A DNA stretch of 64,000 bases from Nemophila menziesii (Eukaryota > Streptophyta > Magnoliopsida > Boraginales > Hydrophyllaceae): positions 2,698,544 through 2,762,543 of the forward strand of contig JARWIR010000042.1 in NCBI GenBank assembly GCA_029959085.1, written 5' to 3'. Made by a program: the position numbers and the translations under genes. Within the stretch, counting starts at the first letter, position 1. Every line of letters begins with the position of its first letter. Under the pieces are notes generated by a model, which was given only the letters and a program-made list of their open reading frames with translations, did no database searches and was not told where the DNA came from. This document shows, one piece after another, positions 17,291-62,952 of the stretch.

Positions 17291-18420
17291 TTATTGTTTA
17301 TCTCCGACCACCACTATCGACCACCACCGGCGCCGCCAACCGGTGCGTACTTAGTGAATTTACTGAGTATCGGAAAAATCACCGAGTTTCATAGAAATCA
17401 CAGAGTTTTGGAAAAAATCACCTAGTATGAAAATCACTATGGACGAGATTTCACTTAGTACGAACAAAATCACCGAGTATCGGAAAAAATCAATGTGTAT
17501 CGGAAAAAATCACCTAGTATGAAAATCACTAAGGACGAGATTTCAATTAGAACGAAAAAAATCACTGAGTATCAGAAAAAACCACCTAGTATGAAAATCA
17601 CTAAGGACGAGATTTCACTTAGTACGAAAAAAATCACTGAGTATCGGAAAAAATCATTAAGTATCGGAAAAAATCACCTAGTATGAAATCACTAAGGACT
17701 AGATTTCACTTTGTACGAAAAATAAGTACACTCAACAATTCAATGAGTATACTCATCCAATCACTGAGTATAATTAGAAAACACTAAGTAATACAAAAAC
17801 TGCATAAGATTTATTTTTATTATAAAAAAAATCTAATTATTACAAACTTAAACTATTTAAAAAATATATAAAATTATAATACTACATAATTATTCATTTT
17901 AAAAATCCACTATTGAGCTGGAAAAAAACCTAAAAATACAAATAAAAAATGGAATAAGCATATCACCATTAATATTCTAAGTATTCTCTGTCTTATCAAG
18001 CTTCGAAATATATGGCAGAACCATTTCAAACCTCCATGGACGAACCATTGTCGAAGCTCAAATCTGGTATGAAAATCAGTTGAAACAAACTTTGCTTCAA
18101 GTAATAGATCTTAATAACTTAGAGCATAGATCAATGGTTGAGCACAGATCCATGACCGTGGAAATTTCAACCACAAATAGATTTGCAAGGGAAACTTCAA
18201 CCACAAAGAAATTTGCTCTAAATTACGCCATTAACGTCGTCTCCTCAAAACTCTTCCATCAACGTCAATTTCGAGAGATCTTGCTTCGAAGTTGATTAGC
18301 TCTGTTCTTGGAACAAAGGATGTTTCCTTTGTTTCACACCTATGTCACCGTGCTACCTTCGTGAAGTACCATTCTGGTGGGTGGGGTACTGGGGTTGTGG
18401 AAAGCGATGAGTGTAAATAA
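17291..18420. repeat. AGTATCGG-type dispersed repeat, copy 2, with minisatellite
   Basis: A CTCCGACCACC block at 17301 is followed by a minisatellite at about 17360-17720. Its unit, CACCTAGTATGAAAATCACT plus AAGGACGAGATTTCA, occurs four times at about 72-85 bp spacing, interleaved with AGTATCGGAAAAAATCA phrases. Copies are imperfect. Open frames in the array are by-products of the repeat. Confidence 0.6.
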
Positions 18421-19102: not shown

Positions 19103-19775
19103 AGCAGCTCCTTCTTCGTTGCCAGAGATCTAATGGGGAGGTGTTGCCGCCGCCGTTCGTGGAAGACATCAGCTCCTTCTTCGTTGCCGGAGATCTATGG
19201 AGAGGTGGTGTCGCCGTTGTTCGTGAGCAGCAAAAAGAGGAAGACAGCAGCTCCAGATTCATATATATATGATTTGTCTATATATATATATATATGTATA
19301 TATCTTAATTTGGTCAGAAGTATCTAAACCTCTCTTTTTTCTCTCTCTTCTTTCCCTAAACATCACGGTGTTTTTTCTCAAAAATCCAACCGAGCTAAAA
19401 AATCTTTCTCCTTTTGCTGCTCATGAACGGCGGCGACACCACCTCCCCATAGATCTCCGTCGACGAAGAAGGAGCTAATGTCTTCCTCCTTCTGCTGCTC
19501 ACGGACGGCGGCGACACCACCTCCCCATAGATCTCCGGCGACAAAGAAAGAGATGTTGTTTTTCACAAACGGCGGCGACACCACCTCTCCATAGATCTCC
19601 GGCGACGAAGAAGGAGCTACTGTCTTCCTCCTTTTGTTGCTCACGAACAGCGGCGACACCACCTCTCCATAGATCTCCGGCGACGAAGAAGGAGCCGATG
19701 TCTTCCACGAACTGCGGCGGCACCACCTCCCCATTAGATCTCCGGCGACGAAGAAGGAGTTGTTGTCTTCCTCCT
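19103..19775. repeat. Spacer between PPR arms: AGATCTCCGGCGACGAAG repeats
   Basis: Two copies of a GC-rich unit (AGATCT with CCGGCGACGAAGAAGGAGC and GGCGGCGACACCACCTC) lie in one orientation at 19110-19240. Five lie in the opposite orientation at about 19430-19760, with spacings of 63-79 bp. The spacer is thus itself partly self-complementary. Repetitive frames such as SPEIYGEVVSP arise from it and are not genes. Confidence 0.7.
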
Positions 19776-20151
19776 TCAGATGCTCACGAATGGGGAAATA
19801 CTCTTAAAGCTATTGATTTGGTAAATACTAGAAAAGGATAGTAGTTATAAGCCCGGTATTAAAGCTTATAACACAGTTTTAGATAGGCTTTGCAAGGAGC
19901 ACGAGGTAGATTATGCTCTATAATAATTTTTCAATATGAAGGAAAATGGAATCTTACCAGATGTCGTAACTTATTTCATGTTGATTAATGGATTATGTAA
20001 GTATAATAGGCACGGAGAAGCAGCGAAAATGTATACTGAGATGATTTGTCTTTCTCTAGATTCATATACATACACTATATTACTTGATTCATATTGTAAG
20101 AAAGGATTAATAGATAATGCTCTAAAATTATTTAATGATGTGAAGGATTAA
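19776..20151 (+). pseudogene. PPR fragment, right arm and extension
   Basis: Plus-strand PPR sequence: after KPGIKAYNTVLDRLCKEHE there are two adjacent stops (TAATAA at about 19920), then MKENGILPDVVTYFMLINGL, CKYNRHGEAAKMYTEM, and beyond the end of the inverted repeat SYTYTILLDSYCKKGLIDNA. About two and a half PPR motifs are preserved. The first 274 bp pair with the left arm at 18817-19102. A 2-nt deletion near 19830 relative to that arm is a further inactivating change. Confidence 0.78.
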
Positions 20152-26389: not shown

Positions 26390-27370
26390 TTTTAATTACT
26401 TGATTAAACTCACCAAGTATTAATTCCTATAAAAAATTATTGAATAGAGTAATATTATATTAAATTCACAAAGAATTATTACGGAGCTCGATTAAATTCC
26501 AATACGGAATGATGAAGCAAGTAATACTTGATTAAATTCACCAACAATTATCAAAGAGTTAGATTAAATTCATATATGGAATTATCGAAACAAGTAATAC
26601 TTGATTAAATTCACCAAGAATTATCAAGAATCTCGTTTAAATCCCTATACATAATAACCGAAACAAATAATACTTGATCAAATTCACATAGAATTATCGA
26701 GGAGATTGATTAAATGTCTATATGGAATTATCAAAAAAATAACACTTGATTAAATGCACCAAGAATTATTAAGGAGCTCAGATAAATTCCTATACATAAT
26801 TGCTGAAACAAATAATATTTTCTTTAAGTCCACCAAGAATTATCAAGACGCTCGAAAAAATTTCTATACAAAATTATCGAAGTGAATAATATTTGATTAA
26901 ATTTACCGAGAAAGATCAAGGAGCTCGATTACATTCATATCAGTAATTTTCTAAAAAAGTAATATTAGATTAAATTCACCGAGAATAATCAAAGAGCTCG
27001 ATTAAATTCCTATACAGGATTATCGAAGCAAGTAACATATGATTAAGTTTACCAATAATTATCAGGAATTTCGATTAAATTCCTATACGAAATTTCAGAA
27101 ACAAATAATATTTGGTTAATTTTACAAAAAATATCAAGGTTCTCGATTAAATTCCTACATGGAATTATTGAAATAAGTGACATTCAATTAAATTCATCAA
27201 GCGATATCAAAGAGATCGATTAAGTTCTCATATGAAATTATCAAACAAGTGACACTTGATTAAATTCACCAAGAACTAACGACGAGTTTGGTTAAATTCT
27301 ATATTGAATTATCAAAGAAAATAACACTTGATTAAATACACTAAGAATTATCAAACATCTCGATTACTTT
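26390..27370. repeat. Tandem repeat, period about 74 bp, about 13 copies
   Basis: The unit contains GATTAAATTCACCAAGAATT, ATCAAGGAGCTCGATTAAAT and TCCTATAYGGAATTATCGAA, ACAAGTAATACTT. Occurrences of the first phrase are spaced about 70-75 bp across nearly 1 kb. Copies differ by many substitutions, so the array is old. It is satellite-like and noncoding. Confidence 0.85.
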
Positions 27371-54809: not shown

Positions 54810-54818
54810 TTTTTTTAA
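54810..54818. repeat. MULE target-site duplication, left copy
   Basis: TTTTTTTAA, identical to 62944-62952. Confidence 0.93.
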
Positions 54819-54965
54819 GAGTAAATAACACTTTTGCCCCCTGTGTTTATACCCGATTGACAGGTTGCCCCCTAACTCTTAAAATGCGCCTAGATGCCCC
54901 CCAAGATTTGTTTTTGTGACCCGTTACCCCCTACTGCGTGTTCCGTCCATTTATCACCGTTAAAA

Positions 54966-54988
54966 GTGACGTGGCAATTCCACGTCAC
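54966..54988. promoter_or_regulatory. Paired ACGTGG / CCACGT sites in the left TIR
   Basis: Nine-bp inverted arms GTGACGTGG and CCACGTCAC separated by CAATT. ACGTGG cores are typical bZIP (ABRE/G-box) sites. The same pair is in the right TIR at 62774-62796. Confidence 0.6.
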
Positions 54989-55089
54989 AATTTTTTTTTT
55001 TTTTTTAAATCCAGGTGTTAATTGCGTTTTTAATTAACTTAACCCTTATTTTAACAAGGGCAAGATGGGGAATTCACCAATGGCTATCC

Positions 55090-55097
55090 TATATATA
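55090..55097 (+). promoter_or_regulatory. TATA box of the GRF gene, inside the TIR
   Basis: TATATATA about 155 bp before the ATG, embedded in identical TIR context to the box at 62666-62673 for the transposase gene. Confidence 0.6.
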
Positions 55098-55245
55098 CCC
55101 CAAAAACACTTTAACATCTTAACTTAACCAAAAACGAAAATCAAAAGGAGAAAAAGGGTTCGGTTTGGGGAAGAACTCGAAGAACACCAAAACCCTAGCT
55201 TTCTACAGTAAATCGCGTCGGATCCTCCCAATACCTTCAACGTTG

Positions 55246-55845
55246 ATGCCGATGTCGCCCCTTAAAGCCGATAGCGCTGGTTCTTCTTCGCACTACACTT
55301 CTCAAGTCCCCTATTGCAGATGCAAGAAACTAGCAAGGCTTCACACCTCTTGGACAGATACGAATCCTTGCAGGAGGTTTTACAGGTGCATGTATTGGGG
55401 GTGTTCAATGGATTGCAAGTTCTTCATGTGGTTGGATGAGCCATTGCCGGAGGCTACTAGTTCGATAATTCGAGGGCTTCTATTTAAAGATTCCAATCAC
55501 TGTCTTGAGAAAGATGCAATGGAGACGAAGATGAACTTGTTGGTCTCTGATTACGGAGATATGATGCTGTTAGAGAAAAAAGCTTTTGCAGATTGGAAGC
55601 TTGAACATGAGAAAGTGAATGAACTGAACACACAGTTGGTTGAATTGCAAGAAAAAGAACAAGTTGTCTCAAAAGATTTGAAATTTGAGCGTGTGAAAGT
55701 AACTGTCTTGGAGAATGAGGTGCAACGTCTTAACATATCGATGGACACTATATCTCGGGAAAACAAGTTTCTGAAATGGACCTGCTTCATGATTATATTC
55801 CTCTTCCTCTCCATTTTGTCTTGTATTAGTGTGTCAAAGAATTAG
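55246..55845 (+). CDS. GRF zinc-finger protein with coiled coil and C-terminal TM
   Basis: A single-exon frame of 199 codons from the first ATG (55246); codons upstream are open but lack an ATG. A GRF-type zinc finger lies at residues 22-66: C24 and C26 in YCRCKK, HTSWTDTNPCRRFYRC (C42, C48), C53, C57 and CKFFMWLDEP. GRF fingers bind nucleic acid in other proteins. A helical, charged region with heptad character follows at about residues 95-172, then a hydrophobic segment WTCFMIIFLFLSILSCISV at about 177-195, predicted to span a membrane. The architecture matches plant proteins annotated as At4g04775-like. Its place in the MULE, driven by the TIR promoter, corresponds to mudrB of MuDR. Whether it helps transposition or is a captured host gene is not known. 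Confidence 0.85.
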   Translation: MPMSPLKADSAGSSSHYTSQVPYCRCKKLARLHTSWTDTNPCRRFYRCMYWGCSMDCKFFMWLDEPLPEATSSIIRGLLFKDSNHCLEKDAMETKMNLLVSDYGDMMLLEKKAFADWKLEHEKVNELNTQLVELQEKEQVVSKDLKFERVKVTVLENEVQRLNISMDTISRENKFLKWTCFMIIFLFLSILSCISVSKN

Positions 55846-56441
55846 AAGGTTGTTGGAGGTGTATTTTGGTTTAGCCAGAGTGATGCAGCAGGTGGTTGCA
55901 ACTGATGGTGTTTTGTGTTTGATTGATCATTTTGTTGAAGTTTGCAGCTGTTGGTGTTTTGTGTTTGTTTTATCAGTTTGTTGTAGTTCTAAATCTGGTG
56001 TAATGTGTTAGTTTTCAGCTTTGTTTGTAATAGACTGTTTAACTAAAGTTTTTGGTTTTTGTTGAAGTGGATTATGAAGTTATTGCGGTTTGTTTAAGTT
56101 GTGTTTTGCTGTGCAATGAATATAGTATGTTAAAGAAACACTTAATGGACAATAGAATCTAATGAAATCTAAAAAAAGTAGATAAAGAAAACAATAAAGT
56201 GCTGGCATTACATAGACCATAGCAAAAAAAATATTCAAAGCATCCACTTGTGCACTAGCATACAAAGCACCACAGACCTGCAATAAAGGCCTTACCAACA
56301 AAAAAACAGTATTTAAATACCACCTACACCTCATACTAGAAACCCTTAAAAACCACATCCTTGCTGCGTGAAGATCTACTTTTACACAAAATAAAAGTCA
56401 CAAAACACAGAAATATAAAACACTCAAATCTGCAGAATTCT
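55846..56441. other. Intergenic tail-to-tail region between the MULE genes
   Basis: Holds the 3' UTRs of the two convergent genes. T-rich before about 56090 and A-rich after it, as expected for ends of opposite transcripts. No other coding feature is supported. Confidence 0.55.
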
Positions 56442-59400
56442 TCAATCTTTAGCTTCTTTCCTAGTTTTTACTGAAGAACTGGTGGCTGCCTTCCTCATAC
56501 GAAGTGCTTCAGCAACAGTTACATACTTTGGATCACCCTCTCGCATTACCACCCCCTGTTTATGCTGGATTACGCGCCGCTTTTTCTCTGGTAGTCTTGT
56601 GTCTCCTTCCTGGTAGAATGATAAAGAAGAAGTTAAGCATTCTGTAGTATGTAATGGTGTAAAAAAAATCAACACATGGCTAACCTCAGGTAAACTCCTT
56701 TTTGATCCTGATTCTGCTGGTGGTTTATCATGTTTGAACCTCACCTACATGGTAAACAAATAAAAGCATTCAATAAAGGTATCTGCAGAAGGTCTTTTTT
56801 GCACAATTTTGTAGATCCAGGGGGCATTTAGTCACTGAAATAAAAGTCTAAGGGGTAGTTAGTCAAATCATTATATACTTACCCCTGGGATGTTCCTTAA
56901 TGAATTCTTCTTTTTTTGCTTAGGGGGGGCTTTCTCCTTTGTTTTGTCTATGCTAATCTGCTCACTTGTTTTCTCATTCTCATTTGTTTGTGCATCCCCA
57001 GCATTTTTATGCTTTGCTTTTTCCAATAGTTCTGTTAACTTCTCCATCTTTACCTTCTGCATAAACAAAGTAAGTTATAGGGGGTAAGTAGTCAAGACAT
57101 AAACAATTATAGGGGGTAAGTTGACAAAACATAATAAGGTATAGGGGGTAATTAGTCATAAACCATAACTTTAAAGGGGGTATTAGTACAAACCTTTAAA
57201 ATTGATTTAGGAGGATTATTTGTAGTCTTCTGTTTTTGTTTCCCAGATTCATCAACCTGTAATCATTATTCACATAATACAATGTCTTATAAACAATACC
57301 TAATGCAAAAAATAGTTTCTATTTCAATAATAATGACCTCTAATGGTGATGTAGGAGCAACAGAAGTATTTCCCTTTTGTGTCCCTGGTTCATCTTCCTC
57401 TAAAGATATAGGCATTGTGCTTGAACCTCCTGAAACTGTCTTCAATCCTTGATCCTTAATTCTACTGCTTTGGCGTATTGGTTTTTCCACTGCTTTGTCT
57501 GGTATGCGCATCTTTGGTCTGGACTTAGGTGGACTATCAACTACTGGCTCAACTGATCTGTGTACTGGAAAGCGCATCTTTGGTCTGGATCTGTGTGGTG
57601 AATTATCACCTGCCTCCTGTGATGTTTGTCCTGGTAAGCGCATCCTTGGTCTGGATCTAGGGGGTGAGTTAACTCCTGAATCCTTTTCCTGAGGTAAGCG
57701 CATCTTTGGTTTTGATCCTCTGGTTGCCTTAGCAATTGTTTTTTTCTCTTTGTCTTTCTCACCAATTGTATCTTTTTTTGTCACATTTAAATTTTCAGGC
57801 TCAGATGGGGTAGACTGTGGGTTAGAAGGAGCAGAGGGTTGGACTTCTAACTCATCGAACATTTTGTTAATCGTCTCATCTGGGGTCTCATCCACATCTG
57901 CATTAACACCAACACCCCTACCATCAGCTACACCATCTTCCATAACTTCATTGTCACCAACACCCCTACCATCAGCTGCACCATCTCCCATAACTTCATT
58001 ATCACCTTGAATATCCTCCAATCCTACTGTTTCCTGTTCTGTAGTACCTAAATTTGCCTTACATGACCTTTTGTTATGGCCTTCTCCCTTGCAAATTGCA
58101 CATTTATGTGAAGTACCTTTCATTAACATCTTTTGAACACCTTCAGATGTTCTTTCTTTCCTCCACTTTTTAACCTGGTCCTCATCTGCCTCCTTAGTTC
58201 TTGCCCTTTTGGGTCTGCCAACCAACTTAAAAGCTACTGGAGGTTCTACACTTACAGGCCTTGTACTAGGCCACATCTTTGGTCCATTTATAGGGTATAT
58301 CATTGGTGTATAAGCCTTCATATACGTCACCTTTGAGTAGCATTCGTGGACATAGTTTTCTGGGTCTTTACCTATGTATTGAATACTCGCTATCGCATGA
58401 AAGCAAGGTATCCCAGATAGCTCCCACCTCCTGCAGGGACAGCTATTTGTATCTAAATCTACAGCATACGAATCTGTTCCAAGGTTCCTTACTTCAAATT
58501 TCATTTCACCGCAAAACACTGCATGCCACTTTCCACTGTTTGTTTTACCTTTATTCACCAACTTCCTAACCTTAGGACATAGATCACCTTCGTATTTTGT
58601 CATCCATGCTCTTTTAGACTGAAGCCTTTTCAAACTATACATCCTCAGACCCTCTAGTATGAGGATGATAGACTTGTCCCTGAGAAAAAAAAACCTTTAC
58701 TGTCAGTTGTGTAGGGTTTATAGGGGGTAAGTGGTCATTAAATAAAACTTTATAGGGGGTAAATAGTCATTATGTAAAACTAAGTAGGGGGTAAGTAGTC
58801 ATTAAATAAAACTTTATAGGGGGTAAGTAGTCACCAAATAAAACTTTATAGGGGGTACGTAGTCACTAAATAAAACTTTATAGGGGGTACGTAATCATAA
58901 ATTAGCACTTTATAGGGGGTAAGTAGTCATAATACCTGACTTTTTTTATGGCATTGTTATAGCTTTCACAGATGTTGTTAAGTAGAAGATCACATTTTGT
59001 AACAGTACTAAAGTGAGACCTTGTCCATGTCTTAGGATCTAAACTAGATAGCCAATTGAATGCCTCCTCATTCATGTTTTTAATCTCAGCCATGACCTCA
59101 TTAAATATGTATTCTGTGGGGGCCCTAGCAGCTTCCCAAACTTTGTCTTTTAAGGCCATTCCAGGATGTTTGATTTTGAAATTATTGTAGAGATGTCTTA
59201 CACAATGTCTATGTTCAATATCTGGAAGCATGTCACTCATCACTTGAAGCAAACCCTATACACACATACATTTAGATATAAATTCAGTGTTCTAAAGAAA
59301 ACATTTTAATTAAGCCAGTGAAGGATAACCAACCTTTTGTCTATCTGATATGAAAGTCCATTCTTCTTGATTAGTAATACCAAGATCTTGTATCAACAGA

Positions 59401-62400
59401 TTAAAAAACCATCTCCAAGAATTGCTATCTTCTTTCTCAGCTACACAATACAAAATTGGGAATATACAATTGTTCCCATCAATACCAACTGCTGTCAAAA
59501 TTACACCAGGATGTGGACCTTTCAAGTGACATCCATCAACCCCAACAACCTTTCTACAACCCTCTAAAAATCCCCTTCTGCAACCCTCTAAGCAAACATA
59601 AATTCTTTGAAATCTTTCTACTCCAGTTACCTCATCAGTAGTTGTTTCAATTGCTACAGTACTTCCAGGGTTACTTCTTCTTATTTCTGCTGCATAATCA
59701 AAAAGCTTTTTGTATTGATCCTTGTATTCAGCCTCAATCATGCTTTTTGCAGACTTATATGCCCTGTAGCATGTTCTGGTACTAACATTAACTGAATAAT
59801 CCCGATGCACTAACTGTTGAAAGTCACTCACATTACTGTAGAGGTTCAATCTTATCATATCTTTAAAAGTATTTGCCAAGAACTTTGCAGTAACATGCTT
59901 ATGGTTAAGGTTTTTACCACAACTATGTTTATTACATAAACTCATTATCACCAGCCCACCAACCTTTTCTTTATACGATGCATATAAAAACCACCCACAT
60001 CCTGCTCCTTTGCAAACAACTCTAATCCGATTCCAATCGTTCTTCACAAACTTAATGTTGACCACCTTTCTTATGGCATGTGTTCTTACTGCTTGTCTAA
60101 GATCAGAGGCATTCGCAAACGTCAATCCTAAAACAAATCTAGGCTTCTGCATATCTATACTCGCCTTAAATAGGGGGTATTTCATCTTTTTCTTGCGCAA
60201 CTTTTTATTTTTTCCATCTTCATCTATACCAGAAGAAGAACTAGCTGTACTCAGATCTTCGGAATCATGTATATATTCATCCGAATCTGTCCCACCACCA
60301 ACATCATCACTATCGCCTTCAGAAACATCTGCATCATCATTTTCCACATTCATTCTATCCACTTCCACATCCGAGTCAATGAATGTATTATAATCCTGGT
60401 CGTCATCACCCTCACTCAAATCGATGTCGCTATCTATTATATAATCGTCATCAGTTGTGGATTCTTCATCCACATCTTCATCAGGTTCAGACAACTTCTT
60501 TTTCTTGTAACTCTCTCGTTTGGTACCACTAGGGCCCACTCCTTCTACTCTTGTTCTTTTTATACTAGCCCTCGTACGTTTCTTGTTACCAACTGTTTCT
60601 GTTTTCTTTACTTGTGAACTGGTTTGTTTCTTCTGTTGTTGTATAACCAACTTCTTCTTCTTTATGACATTAGCAAGTAACTCATTATCACTGAACTCCT
60701 CATCCACATCTTCTTCACCATCAGGGTTGTTAATGACATTATCCGAGTCATCTGTTAGGTCTTCATCTATAAGCCGGAAAGGCCTCAATGGAGATTTATG
60801 TTTGGAACTCCTCGTAGTCACATTATCTTCAGTGTTCAAAGCTTTCAACACTTTCTCCAACATATCATTAACAGACTTCTCCTTCTCTCCTATATCAGAG
60901 AGTTGTTCTTCCAAACTGTCATCCCCTTCCTTCTCATTAATTTGTGTGCTTTGTTCTTCAGAAACAACCTGAAACAAAGAATGAAATATTTAGGGGGTAA
61001 TTTGTCAAGCATACGAAATAGTAAGGGGTAAACTGTCACACAACCTTTGTCCCTTCTTTGCAATTCTGGTGTTCTTCTTCAACATCATTATCATCCACTT
61101 TATTATGGACTTCATCAGCAGTCTGAGATACTTCTTCACCAGTAACTCCTTCCTCCTTTTCACCTTCATTGTTATCACAGGTCTGCGCTCCTTCTTCAAA
61201 AACAACCTAAAACAAAGAATGAAATATTTAGGGGGTAATTTGTCAAACATACGAAATAGTAAGGGGTAAACTGTCACACAACCTTTGTCCCTTCTTTGCA
61301 ATTCTGGTGTTCTTCTTCAACATCATTATCATCCACTTTATTATGGACTTCATCAGCAGTCTGAGATACTTCTTCACCAGAAACTCCTTCCTCCTTTTCA
61401 CCTTCATTGTTATCACAGGTCTGAGCTCCTTCTTCAGAAACAACCTGAAACAAAGAATGAAATATTTAGGGGGTAATTTGTCAAGCATACGAAATAGTAA
61501 GGGGTAAACTGTCACACAACCTTTGTCCCTTCTTTGCAATTCTGGTGTTCTTCTTCAACATTACTATCATTATCATCCACTTTATTATGGACTTCATCAG
61601 CAGTCCGAGATACTTCTTCACCATTAACTCCTTCCTCCTTTTCACCTTCATTGTTATCACAGGTCTGAGCTCCTTCTTCAGAAACAACCTGAAACAAAGA
61701 ATGAAATATAAGTTAAAGAACTGAAAGGGGTAAACTGTCAAATGACTTTCTACCTTTAAACCTTCTTCTACAAGCTTGTTTTCCTCTAAGCTTTTCACTT
61801 CATTACAGTTTTGAACTAATTCTTGTTCATCTACTTCTACTTCATTAACATTGACTTCTTCTCGCTGGTTAACTGTTTCTTCATCCTTTTTCCACTTTAG
61901 TAACAAAGGCATGAAGATGGGAGATTGAAGAACTTGGTCATCAGGGCCTATGGGATTATTCACAACGTAAAGGTCCACAGTTACGTTGTTGTCTGCGATT
62001 CTACACATCTCCATGCCTTTGTCCTCGCTATCTAAACACACTAACCCATCAGGTAGATTTGAACCCACTTTCAAATAATAAACATCAGAGTAACAAATTA
62101 CACCCAATTTCGAAAGAATTTTTCTAAGAACTGGTATACTAAACTTGTCATAATGACAACCGTCAACATACTCTATGCTCACTTCATGATAGGAACTCTT
62201 ATCTTCATTAAAGAACCCACCGAAGTGAATCCTTAGTGCGAATTTATCTGTTAAACAAGCAAATTTTAATTGAATAGATTAGTTACCAAATACATTAAGA
62301 ATCACAAAATGGAAAAACAATAGTCAAACTACGGGTATGGTAACCGAATCCCGTAAAATCTGCTATTATTACTAAGAAAATCCCTCAATCCACGCGTGAT

Positions 62401-62523
62401 ATCTATGTATGTAATAAATTTAGTATAAAACCCTATATTTTCGGGTTAAAGGATCTTAGCCAATGAGCAAGGATTTAGGGTTAATAAATAAACCCACTTA
62501 CTCCATTGATTTGCCTGCGCCAT
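56442..62523 (-). CDS. MURA-type Mutator transposase
   Basis: Catalyses cut-and-paste transposition in the nucleus. Exons from the start: 62502-62523, 61754-62247, 61521-61688, 61283-61444, 61045-61206, 59334-60968, 58936-59255, 57338-58679, 57194-57256, 56883-57056, 56685-56744, 56442-56609. All junctions keep frame, giving 1589 residues without a stop. Domains: N-terminal PB1-like segment (KFALRIHFGGFF ... YVDGCHYDKF); acidic repeats; MuDR DNA-binding zinc domain (CKGAGCGWFLYASYKE); DDE transposase with D814 (VVGVDGCHLKGPH), D878 (FISDRQKG) and probable E978 (NNICESYNNAI); SWIM finger (CPCRRWELSGIPCFHAIA); CCHC knuckle (CAICKGEGHNKRSC); and a basic C-terminal tail with SRPKMRLP-type repeats. 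Longer than typical MULE transposases because of the acidic and basic extensions. Splice sites are inferred. Confidence 0.92.
56820..56865 (+). repeat. TIR-like motif pair in a transposase intron
   Basis: GGGGGCATTTAGTCA and GGGGTAGTTAGTCA, 31 bp apart, in the intron 56745-56882. Confidence 0.75.
57080..57190 (+). repeat. Four TIR-like motifs at exact 32-bp spacing
   Basis: The G5 starts are at 57080, 57112, 57144 and 57176, followed by TAAGTAGTCA, TAAGTTGACA, TAATTAGTCA and TATTAGTACA. They fill most of the intron 57057-57193. Confidence 0.85.
57490..57720 (-). repeat. Intragenic repeats encoding SRPKMRLP units
   Basis: Four DNA repeats of about 63-70 bp with GCGCATCTTTGGTCTGGAT (plus strand) encode copies of SPP(R/K)SRP(K/R)MR(L/F/I)P within transposase exon 57338-58679. 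A second pair of repeats at about 57915-57985 encodes two NEVM(G/E)DG(A/V)ADGRGVG units. Confidence 0.8.
58723..58931 (+). repeat. Seven TIR-like motifs at exact 32-bp period
   Basis: GGGGGTAAGTAGTCA-type units start at 58723, 58755, 58787, 58819, 58851, 58883 and 58915, joined by 'taaataaaactttata'-like linkers. They fill the intron 58680-58935. Confidence 0.95.
60961..61688 (-). repeat. Tandem triplication of an exon-intron unit (238/238/244 bp)
   Basis: Units start at 60961, 61199 and 61437, with the last ending at 61680. Each contains one acidic exon (54-56 codons, VVSEEGAQTCDNNEGEKEEG ...) and one intron carrying two TIR-like motifs. Units are nearly identical; the third from the left has a 6-bp in-frame gain. 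Confidence 0.95.
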
Positions 62524-62665
62524 TGATCTTCTTCAAAGCACAAGAATTTTGCTTTCCTGGGTTTGGATTTGGTGTTCGTCGAGTTCTTCACAAAACCCGC
62601 GCTCCTTGGTTTTCTCCTTTTGATTTTCGTTTTTGTTAAGTTAATTTGCTTTGTTGTTTTTGGGG

Positions 62666-62673
62666 TATATATA
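62666..62673 (-). promoter_or_regulatory. TATA box of the transposase gene, inside the TIR
   Basis: TATATATA about 143 bp before the ATG at 62523, in the same TIR context as the box at 55090-55097. Confidence 0.6.
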
Positions 62674-62773
62674 GGATAGCCATTGGTGAATTCCCCATCT
62701 TGCCCTTGTTAAAATAAGGGTTAAGTTAATTAAAAACGCAATTAACACCTGGATTTAAAAAAAAAAAAAAATT

Positions 62774-62796
62774 GTGACGTGGAATTGCCACGTCAC
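62774..62796. promoter_or_regulatory. Paired ACGTGG / CCACGT sites in the right TIR
   Basis: Counterpart of the left-TIR pair: GTGACGTGG and CCACGTCAC around AATTG. Confidence 0.6.
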
Positions 62797-62943
62797 TTTT
62801 AACGGTGATAAATGGACGGAACACGCAGTAGGGGGTAACGGGTCACAAAAACAAATCTTAGGGGGCATCTAGGCGCATTTTAAGAGTTAGGGGGCAACCT
62901 GTCAATCGGGTATAAACACAGGGGGCAAAAGTGTCATTTACTC

Positions 62944-62952
62944 TTTTTTTAA
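62944..62952. repeat. MULE target-site duplication, right copy
   Basis: TTTTTTTAA, identical to 54810-54818. Confidence 0.93.

Follow-up and report, generated by a model that had tools for sequence, protein, structure and literature searches.

The Element and Its Two Genes

The DNA analyzed here, a stretch of 64,000 nucleotides from Nemophila menziesii (the window), contains a Mutator-like element (MULE) of 8125 bp at 54819-62943, whose ends are set by its terminal inverted repeats (TIRs) and a target site duplication (TSD). The two TIRs are 94% identical over 381 alignment columns, and the element thus has the long TIRs and the 9-bp TSD that define a Mutator-like element. It carries two convergent genes, one for a transposase (minus strand) and one for a GRF zinc-ribbon protein (plus strand). 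A short motif of the TIRs recurs in regular arrays within the introns of the transposase gene, and these arrays are the subject of this report.

54810..54818, no strand: left TSD copy, TTTTTTTAA, 9 bp, the same letters as 62944-62952
54819..55194, plus strand: left TIR, 376 bp, with inverted motif units at 54834-54931
55165..55845, plus strand: GRF zinc-ribbon gene (PF06839), with a hydrophobic predicted C-terminus
56442..62523, minus strand: transposase gene with about 12 modelled exons (reading frames; Pfam PF03108, PF10551, PF04434)
62565..62943, minus strand: right TIR, 379 bp, with motif units from 62831, 62861 (degenerate), 62890 and 62921
62944..62952, no strand: right TSD copy, TTTTTTTAA, completing a perfect 9-bp duplication

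The exon-intron model relies on reading frames, on GT-AG splice borders and on homology rather than on transcripts. The transposase consists of a PB1-like N-terminal part (a label that comes from PF26130 in homologues), an acidic repeated exon, the DBD_Tnp_Mut, MULE and SWIM domains, and a repetitive C-terminal part. The MuDR DNA-binding, MULE and SWIM domains (PF03108, PF10551, PF04434) all score above cut-off, and the fold of the DNA-binding domain resembles those of AFT2 and WRKY. In the C-terminal part, tandem SRPKMRxP peptide units (57493-57658) correspond to 66-bp DNA repeats, the number of which differs among relatives. The GRF gene is the only gene seen in the element besides the transposase, and its PF06839 match (E 1.6e-5, 25.3 bits) lies slightly under the cut-off of 25.9. 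A scan of five frames at E<=0.01, which took in only part of the introns and short exons, turned up no VANC-like domain (DUF1985/DUF287). A TATA-like box, TATATATA, is situated at 55090 in the left TIR, inward of the motif units, and another at 62666 in the right TIR.

The element has close relatives in the same plant. A near-copy (L012) is 99.7% identical over 8129 aligned bp, and the core exon of the window has at least 78 matching copies with 98-100% identity, a lower bound because 78 of 4377 candidates were scored; in 74 of these 78 copies there is no stop within the matched part. Genome-wide counts refer throughout to the 1.52-Gb assembly of this plant, in which the window is nuclear DNA at G000:C275:2698544-2762543. 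Short elements consisting of TIRs only also exist (L016 and L017), and eight more were recognized by eye among 100 listed genome places of the exact motif.

Motif Arrays in the Transposase Introns

Read in the sense of the transposase gene, the motif is TGAC-N3-TT(A/G)CCCC(C/T), and it is present in both TIRs and in seven of the 11 modelled introns. There are 12 plus-strand and two minus-strand copies of the exact pattern GGGGGYAANNNGTCA, all of them within the element; the rest of the 64-kb window has none. When at least 10 of the 12 defined bases are required, a script count gives 22 plus-strand sites in the element, against a first-order Markov expectation of 0.4 (never more than 3 across 100 simulations). 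Genome-wide, there are 8,511 exact motifs and 30 matches to a reversed-pattern control, and a somewhat broader motif (GWCA) forms 1,139 pairs with a spacing of 31-32 bp, against none for the reversed control. A chance origin is rejected on the simulations, the genome-wide controls and, within the window, the confinement of the exact motif to the element. The introns concerned, together with one that is free of motifs, are as follows.

61689..61753, minus strand: intron i2, one motif (61726)
61445..61520, minus strand: intron i3, motifs at 61469 and 61500, within a 238-bp exon-intron tandem unit
61207..61282, minus strand: intron i4, motifs at 61231 and 61262
60969..61044, minus strand: intron i5, motifs at 60993 and 61024
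59256..59336 (ends approximate by a few bases), minus strand: intron i6, motif-free in the window
58679..58934, minus strand: intron i7, seven motifs 32 bp apart (58723-58915), apparently lineage-specific
57057..57193, minus strand: intron i9, motifs at 57080, 57112 and 57144 and a degenerate unit at 57176, 32 bp apart
56745..56882, minus strand: intron i10, motifs at 56820 and 56851

An initial annotation of this DNA had described such arrays, and they are present with small corrections of position. Its figure of about 20 intron copies agrees with the 19 found at 10 of 12 bases or better, or 20 when the degenerate fourth unit of i9 (57176, GGGGGTATTAGTACA) is counted, and its single copy in i2 starts at 61726 rather than 61727. 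The four TIR sub-repeats start where it had placed them, but the unit at 62861 (GGGGGCATCTAGGCG) deviates from the motif it gave and that at 62921 fits only after a shift of one base. Its statement that exons are free of the motif holds for sense copies, of which the modelled exons of the window have none; exon 2 has one weak antisense site (62091, 10/12). Introns i1, i6, i8 and i11 of the window also have no motif at 10/12 or better. Spacing is exactly 32 bp within i7 and i9 and 31 bp within i3-i5 and i10, and from the unit counts the motif units are estimated to fill 46-93% of the motif-bearing introns. The acidic exon and its two-motif intron together form the 238-bp unit, which is repeated in tandem across 60954-61709.

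Subfamilies F, B, C, E, and G were fetched from the same genome for comparison with the window. Their distance from it at fourfold sites is 0.04 for F, 0.39-0.43 for B, C, and E, and 0.89 for G, which shares 67% amino-acid identity with the window in the aligned core. Across 12 transposase-bearing loci, which are kin, so that their motifs are not independent events, 14.0 kb of introns contain 173 sense and no antisense motifs, and 49.5 kb of exons contain no sense and five antisense motifs, all of which represent a single weak site at homologous positions. Among 35 arrays of seven representatives, 65 of the 67 close neighbors keep the 31-32-bp period (29 at 31 bp and 36 at 32 bp), the two exceptions having distances of 27 and 34 bp; seven more distances of 61-66 bp are compatible with two units flanking a degenerate one, and four exceed 200 bp. 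The period and single orientation in the initial annotation are borne out by these counts, and its argument that all copies face one side of the helix is compatible with the spacing.

Copy number changes rapidly. In 30 near-identical loci, which include the copy in the window, matches in i7 at 9 of 12 bases or better number six in one locus, seven in 20, eight in four and nine in four, with one locus unscorable and some of the nines scoring overlapping matches twice. The 238-bp exon-intron unit is present in two (5 loci), three (18) or four (7) copies. The arrays are homogenized inside families, F being rich in TGTC units and the subfamily B locus L010 in TGACTAATTGCCCCC units, and independent introns have come to agree in the core while their spacers differ. 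The N3 part also differs, introns having mostly TGACTA and the main TIR types TGACAGG and TGACCCG, which implies that the introns have since evolved as a group. The subfamily B element of L010-L011 (G000:C1:500900-517300) occupies about 16 kb, and an insertion is probably nested between its gene parts.

Constraint on the Motif Core

Orthologous introns of the window and the subfamilies were aligned, with the core columns defined from the window alone. Identity was 149/175 in core columns and 231/345 in other columns for B (L013; Fisher p 6e-6), 126/151 and 202/325 for a second B locus (L010; p 2e-6), and 112/127 and 123/229 for C (p 1e-11). With i7 only, the values were 32/40 and 38/65 for G (p 0.03) and 61/70 and 114/147 for E (p 0.10, not significant). 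Core identity thus ranges from 0.80 to 0.88, against 0.54-0.78 elsewhere in the same introns, with p<0.05 in four of five comparisons. Motif-free introns are identical between subfamilies at 118/185, 114/185, 75/128 and 33/65 positions. The register in which arrays are aligned may favor the core; a check restricted to the ungapped i5 and i10 of B still gave 43/48 against 95/134 (p 0.01). A previous comparison, in which the units had been selected by score, carries the bias of that selection and does not count as evidence here. The motif core is constrained between subfamilies, and the feature as a whole is real, constrained and repeated.

Origin of the Array-Bearing Introns

The conserved parts of seven MULE representatives of the same genome (L054-L060, of families K, J, L, N, O, H, and I) served as an outside set. 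Intron i7 is present in all six array-bearing representatives compared (window, F, B, C, E, G) and absent in all seven outside representatives, which read straight through its position. Of the outside families, K, J, L, N, and O have intron i6 and H and I lack it, the calls for L, N, and I being made from match length and the others from alignment or two reading frames. In J, a single open frame runs from an E2-like part via the acidic part to the DNA-binding domain, implying that i2-i5 are absent there too. In a maximum-likelihood tree the array clade has a support of 100; the group that it forms with J, K, L, N, and O has 97, and J as its direct sister just 49. Relatives to either side of the clade in this tree lack i7, as expected of a gained intron. 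One gain is simpler than repeated loss, and the array-carrying introns appear to be lineage-specific. No intermediate state in the gain of the i7 array was found in the material examined. Family G has two motifs in i6, unlike the other family members in which i6 was resolved, and this looks like a further independent acquisition.

The outside representatives (15.0 kb, mostly coding pieces) contain one site at 10/12 or better, in L056. Longer pieces of J contain no array, only eight scattered sites at 9/12 or better (two plus, six minus). The presumed TIR of J (L061 1700-1810), a call that depends on a single 39-bp inverted match (79%), has three GACT...TA(C/T)CC sub-repeats, 32 and 29 bp apart, and the pattern used found no further copy of this sub-repeat in the 8.7 kb of J, introns included. 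Repeated TIR units of about this period appear, from this comparison, to predate the intron arrays. The TIR of K was not found within the 7 kb fetched. The intron arrays of the array clade match its own TIR motif, and no locus examined has intron arrays unrelated to its own TIR; J, the nearest outside family examined at length, has other sub-repeats and no intron arrays and, being a single family, shows their absence rather than covariation between TIR and introns. Family K also has a GRF-like zinc-ribbon frame beside its transposase (L054 5928-6320, by our reading), on the same strand, whereas the two genes are convergent in the window.

A tentative scenario, which we consider possible but rather less than probable, is that arrays of the TIR motif entered the transposase coding sequence in the ancestor of the clade and were kept since they were, or once they became, spliceable. 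The introns would then be cis-regulatory cassettes rather than ancestral introns, and duplication of the acidic exon with its two-site intron (2 to 4 copies) would raise the acidic domain and the number of sites together.

The window contains other repeats outside the element. Overlapping tandem repeats based on AAAAATCACYNAGTATCGG (17374-17722) are possibly subterminal repeats of another element, a GC-rich 78/142-bp tandem repeat of coding-like composition lies at 19403-19790, and a 73-bp unit is arrayed in 13 copies at 26422-27366.

Possible Functions of the Arrays

The intron arrays may be platforms for the TIR-binding protein of the element itself, keeping both promoter and gene body accessible; by analogy with known systems, we favor this reading and give it an even chance. 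The likeliest reader is the transposase, through its WRKY-GCM1-like zinc domain, the GRF protein being a less likely candidate. Such a protein would sit on the transcribed body as well as on the TIRs, and the outcome could be anti-silencing or transcriptional activation in cis, on the model of VANC for VANDAL elements. The suggestion in the initial annotation of binding sites spread through the gene fits the orientation, period, intron confinement and core constraint of the motif, and the transposase is, as it proposed, the probable binder. The TIR copies lie outside the TATA-like boxes (55090, 62666), so that a role common to TIRs and introns is most easily placed at the DNA level. The single orientation within introns is probably fixed by splicing, because reversed arrays would put donor-like G/GTAAGT strings into the pre-mRNA: the reverse complement of the arrays in the window has 13 donor-like sites, to which i7 contributes seven, i9 four, and i5 and i10 one apiece; none occurs on the sense strand.

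Some observations weigh against such protection. The ratio of observed to expected CpG is 0.31 in the transposase exons and 0.19 in the introns (where GpC is also low, 0.46), compared with 0.95 in the left TIR (54819-55000), 0.59 in the GRF gene and 0.68 in the rest of the window. Relatives give 0.78 (K) and 0.60 (J), and exons of B, C, and of F and G give 0.44, 0.42, and 0.32. Array-bearing element bodies have thus lost CG sites, much as prolonged CG methylation would have left them; lasting protection would be expected to do the reverse. Array-less families such as K are also multi-copy. Anti-silencing would still be compatible with the CpG depletion, because VANC21 acts more strongly at non-CG sites (PMC5735166). 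Singleton changes in the 30 near-identical loci show no context excess that would signal recent methylation, the events being few (transitions at CG 6 per 102 sites, CHG 16 per 274 and CHH 84 per 1362, or about 0.002 per site and copy). The contrast in CpG between left TIR and transposase exons is sharp for parts of a single element.

The functions proposed in the initial annotation were titration of the transposase, autoregulation of its own transcription, and assembly of the transposition complex. The transposase would then bind the internal sites with the effect of sequestering protein, blocking elongation of its transcript or aiding synapsis. Any of these would have an identical anatomy, and with at least 78 near-identical copies, more copies would mean more sites. 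The TIR-only short elements, however, indicate that arrays are dispensable in cis for amplification, which disfavors assembly, and some 20 sites beside the thousands in TIRs would titrate weakly. As a group, these functions seem unlikely.

Neutral slippage, by which TIR-derived fragments would have grown in introns and merely been tolerated there, was the other proposal of the initial annotation. It accounts for the confinement to introns, the variable copy number (six to nine motifs in i7 in 29 of 30 loci; two to four exon-intron units) and the homogenization inside families. It does not account for a core that changes more slowly than the spacer in four of five comparisons, for the convergence of independent introns on the core but not the spacer, or for the i6 motifs of family G. 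On the identity of core and spacer, slippage alone is rejected as the origin of the arrays, being unlikely on the sequence comparison, with the reservation that E is not significant and the alignment may be biased; we now regard it as an improbable account.

An RNA-level role, in which the pyrimidine-rich sense motif aids splicing (a branch-point-like TGAC plus a C-tract) or binds an RNA-binding protein, would suit the strictly sense orientation and the large share of the motif-bearing introns that the units fill. It is nevertheless scarcely probable, since the motif is also in the TIRs, beyond the TATA-like boxes, four introns do without it, and splicing needs no 31-32-bp period. A role through R-loops or quadruplexes was considered and set aside, the G-rich strand being the template strand and one G-run per 32 bp being sparse. 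That the GRF protein, not the transposase, reads the arrays as a functional counterpart of VANC, likewise encoded by a second gene, is improbable, as family K has a GRF-like frame and no arrays, the predicted C-terminus is hydrophobic and GRF ribbons bind single strands.

Comparison with Known Systems

In En/Spm, of the CACTA superfamily, a repeated short motif is likewise read by an element protein, TnpA, that also counteracts methylation; these sites are subterminal, not intronic. New introns made from repeated mobile-element sequence recall introner-type intron gain, with the difference that the introns here sit in the gene of the element itself and are built of short units resembling binding sites. 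We know of no report of the MURA-binding site arrayed in mudrA introns. A search of titles and abstract openings, with most subscription papers beyond its reach, brought up no description, for elements other than VANDAL, of transposase introns with arrays of a TIR motif.

In maize Mu elements, MURA is reported to bind a TIR motif of about 32 bp (PMC3310237) and to lower TIR methylation (PMC10398659). The element described here shares with MuDR the type of transposase and the approximate length of the TIR motif, and the convergent genes of MuDR with their TIR promoters can be set beside the TATA-like boxes near the TIRs here.

The closest precedent is provided by VANC21 and VANC6 of the Arabidopsis VANDAL MULEs (PMC5735166, PMC10398659). 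In VANDAL21, tandem motifs of one orientation lie in introns, in intergenic DNA and at the ends; VANC21 binds them and relieves silencing, and VANC proteins carry DUF1985/DUF287 (PMC5735166). Both systems have a short motif, repeated in tandem in one orientation, that occupies introns and non-coding stretches at the ends of a MULE, with rapid copy-number turnover and homogenization of arrays within families. They differ in the motif, YAGTATTAY or AGTTGTCC/AC in the VANC21 and VANC6 systems against TGAC-N3-TTRCCCC here (compared by eye), and in the VANC-like domain, not found here in the five frames scanned. The VANDAL cases illustrated in Figure 4 of that report lie either in introns, those of VANB and VANC, or upstream of VANA (PMC5735166), whereas the motif described here is a TIR sub-repeat, with a period of 31-32 bp, in introns of the transposase gene. 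What appears new with respect to the VANC-type arrangement is that the motif is that of the TIR itself and that the carrier introns look lineage-specific. The many near-identical copies make tests by methylation analysis, DAP-seq and array deletion practical. If the platform reading is correct, the same protein would mobilize the element and probably guard its own expression, and the family would offer a clear test case for introns arising as carriers of regulatory sites. MULEs without VANC would then have reached a VANDAL-like solution, arrays of a self-recognition motif along the transcribed body, by reusing the site of their TIRs.

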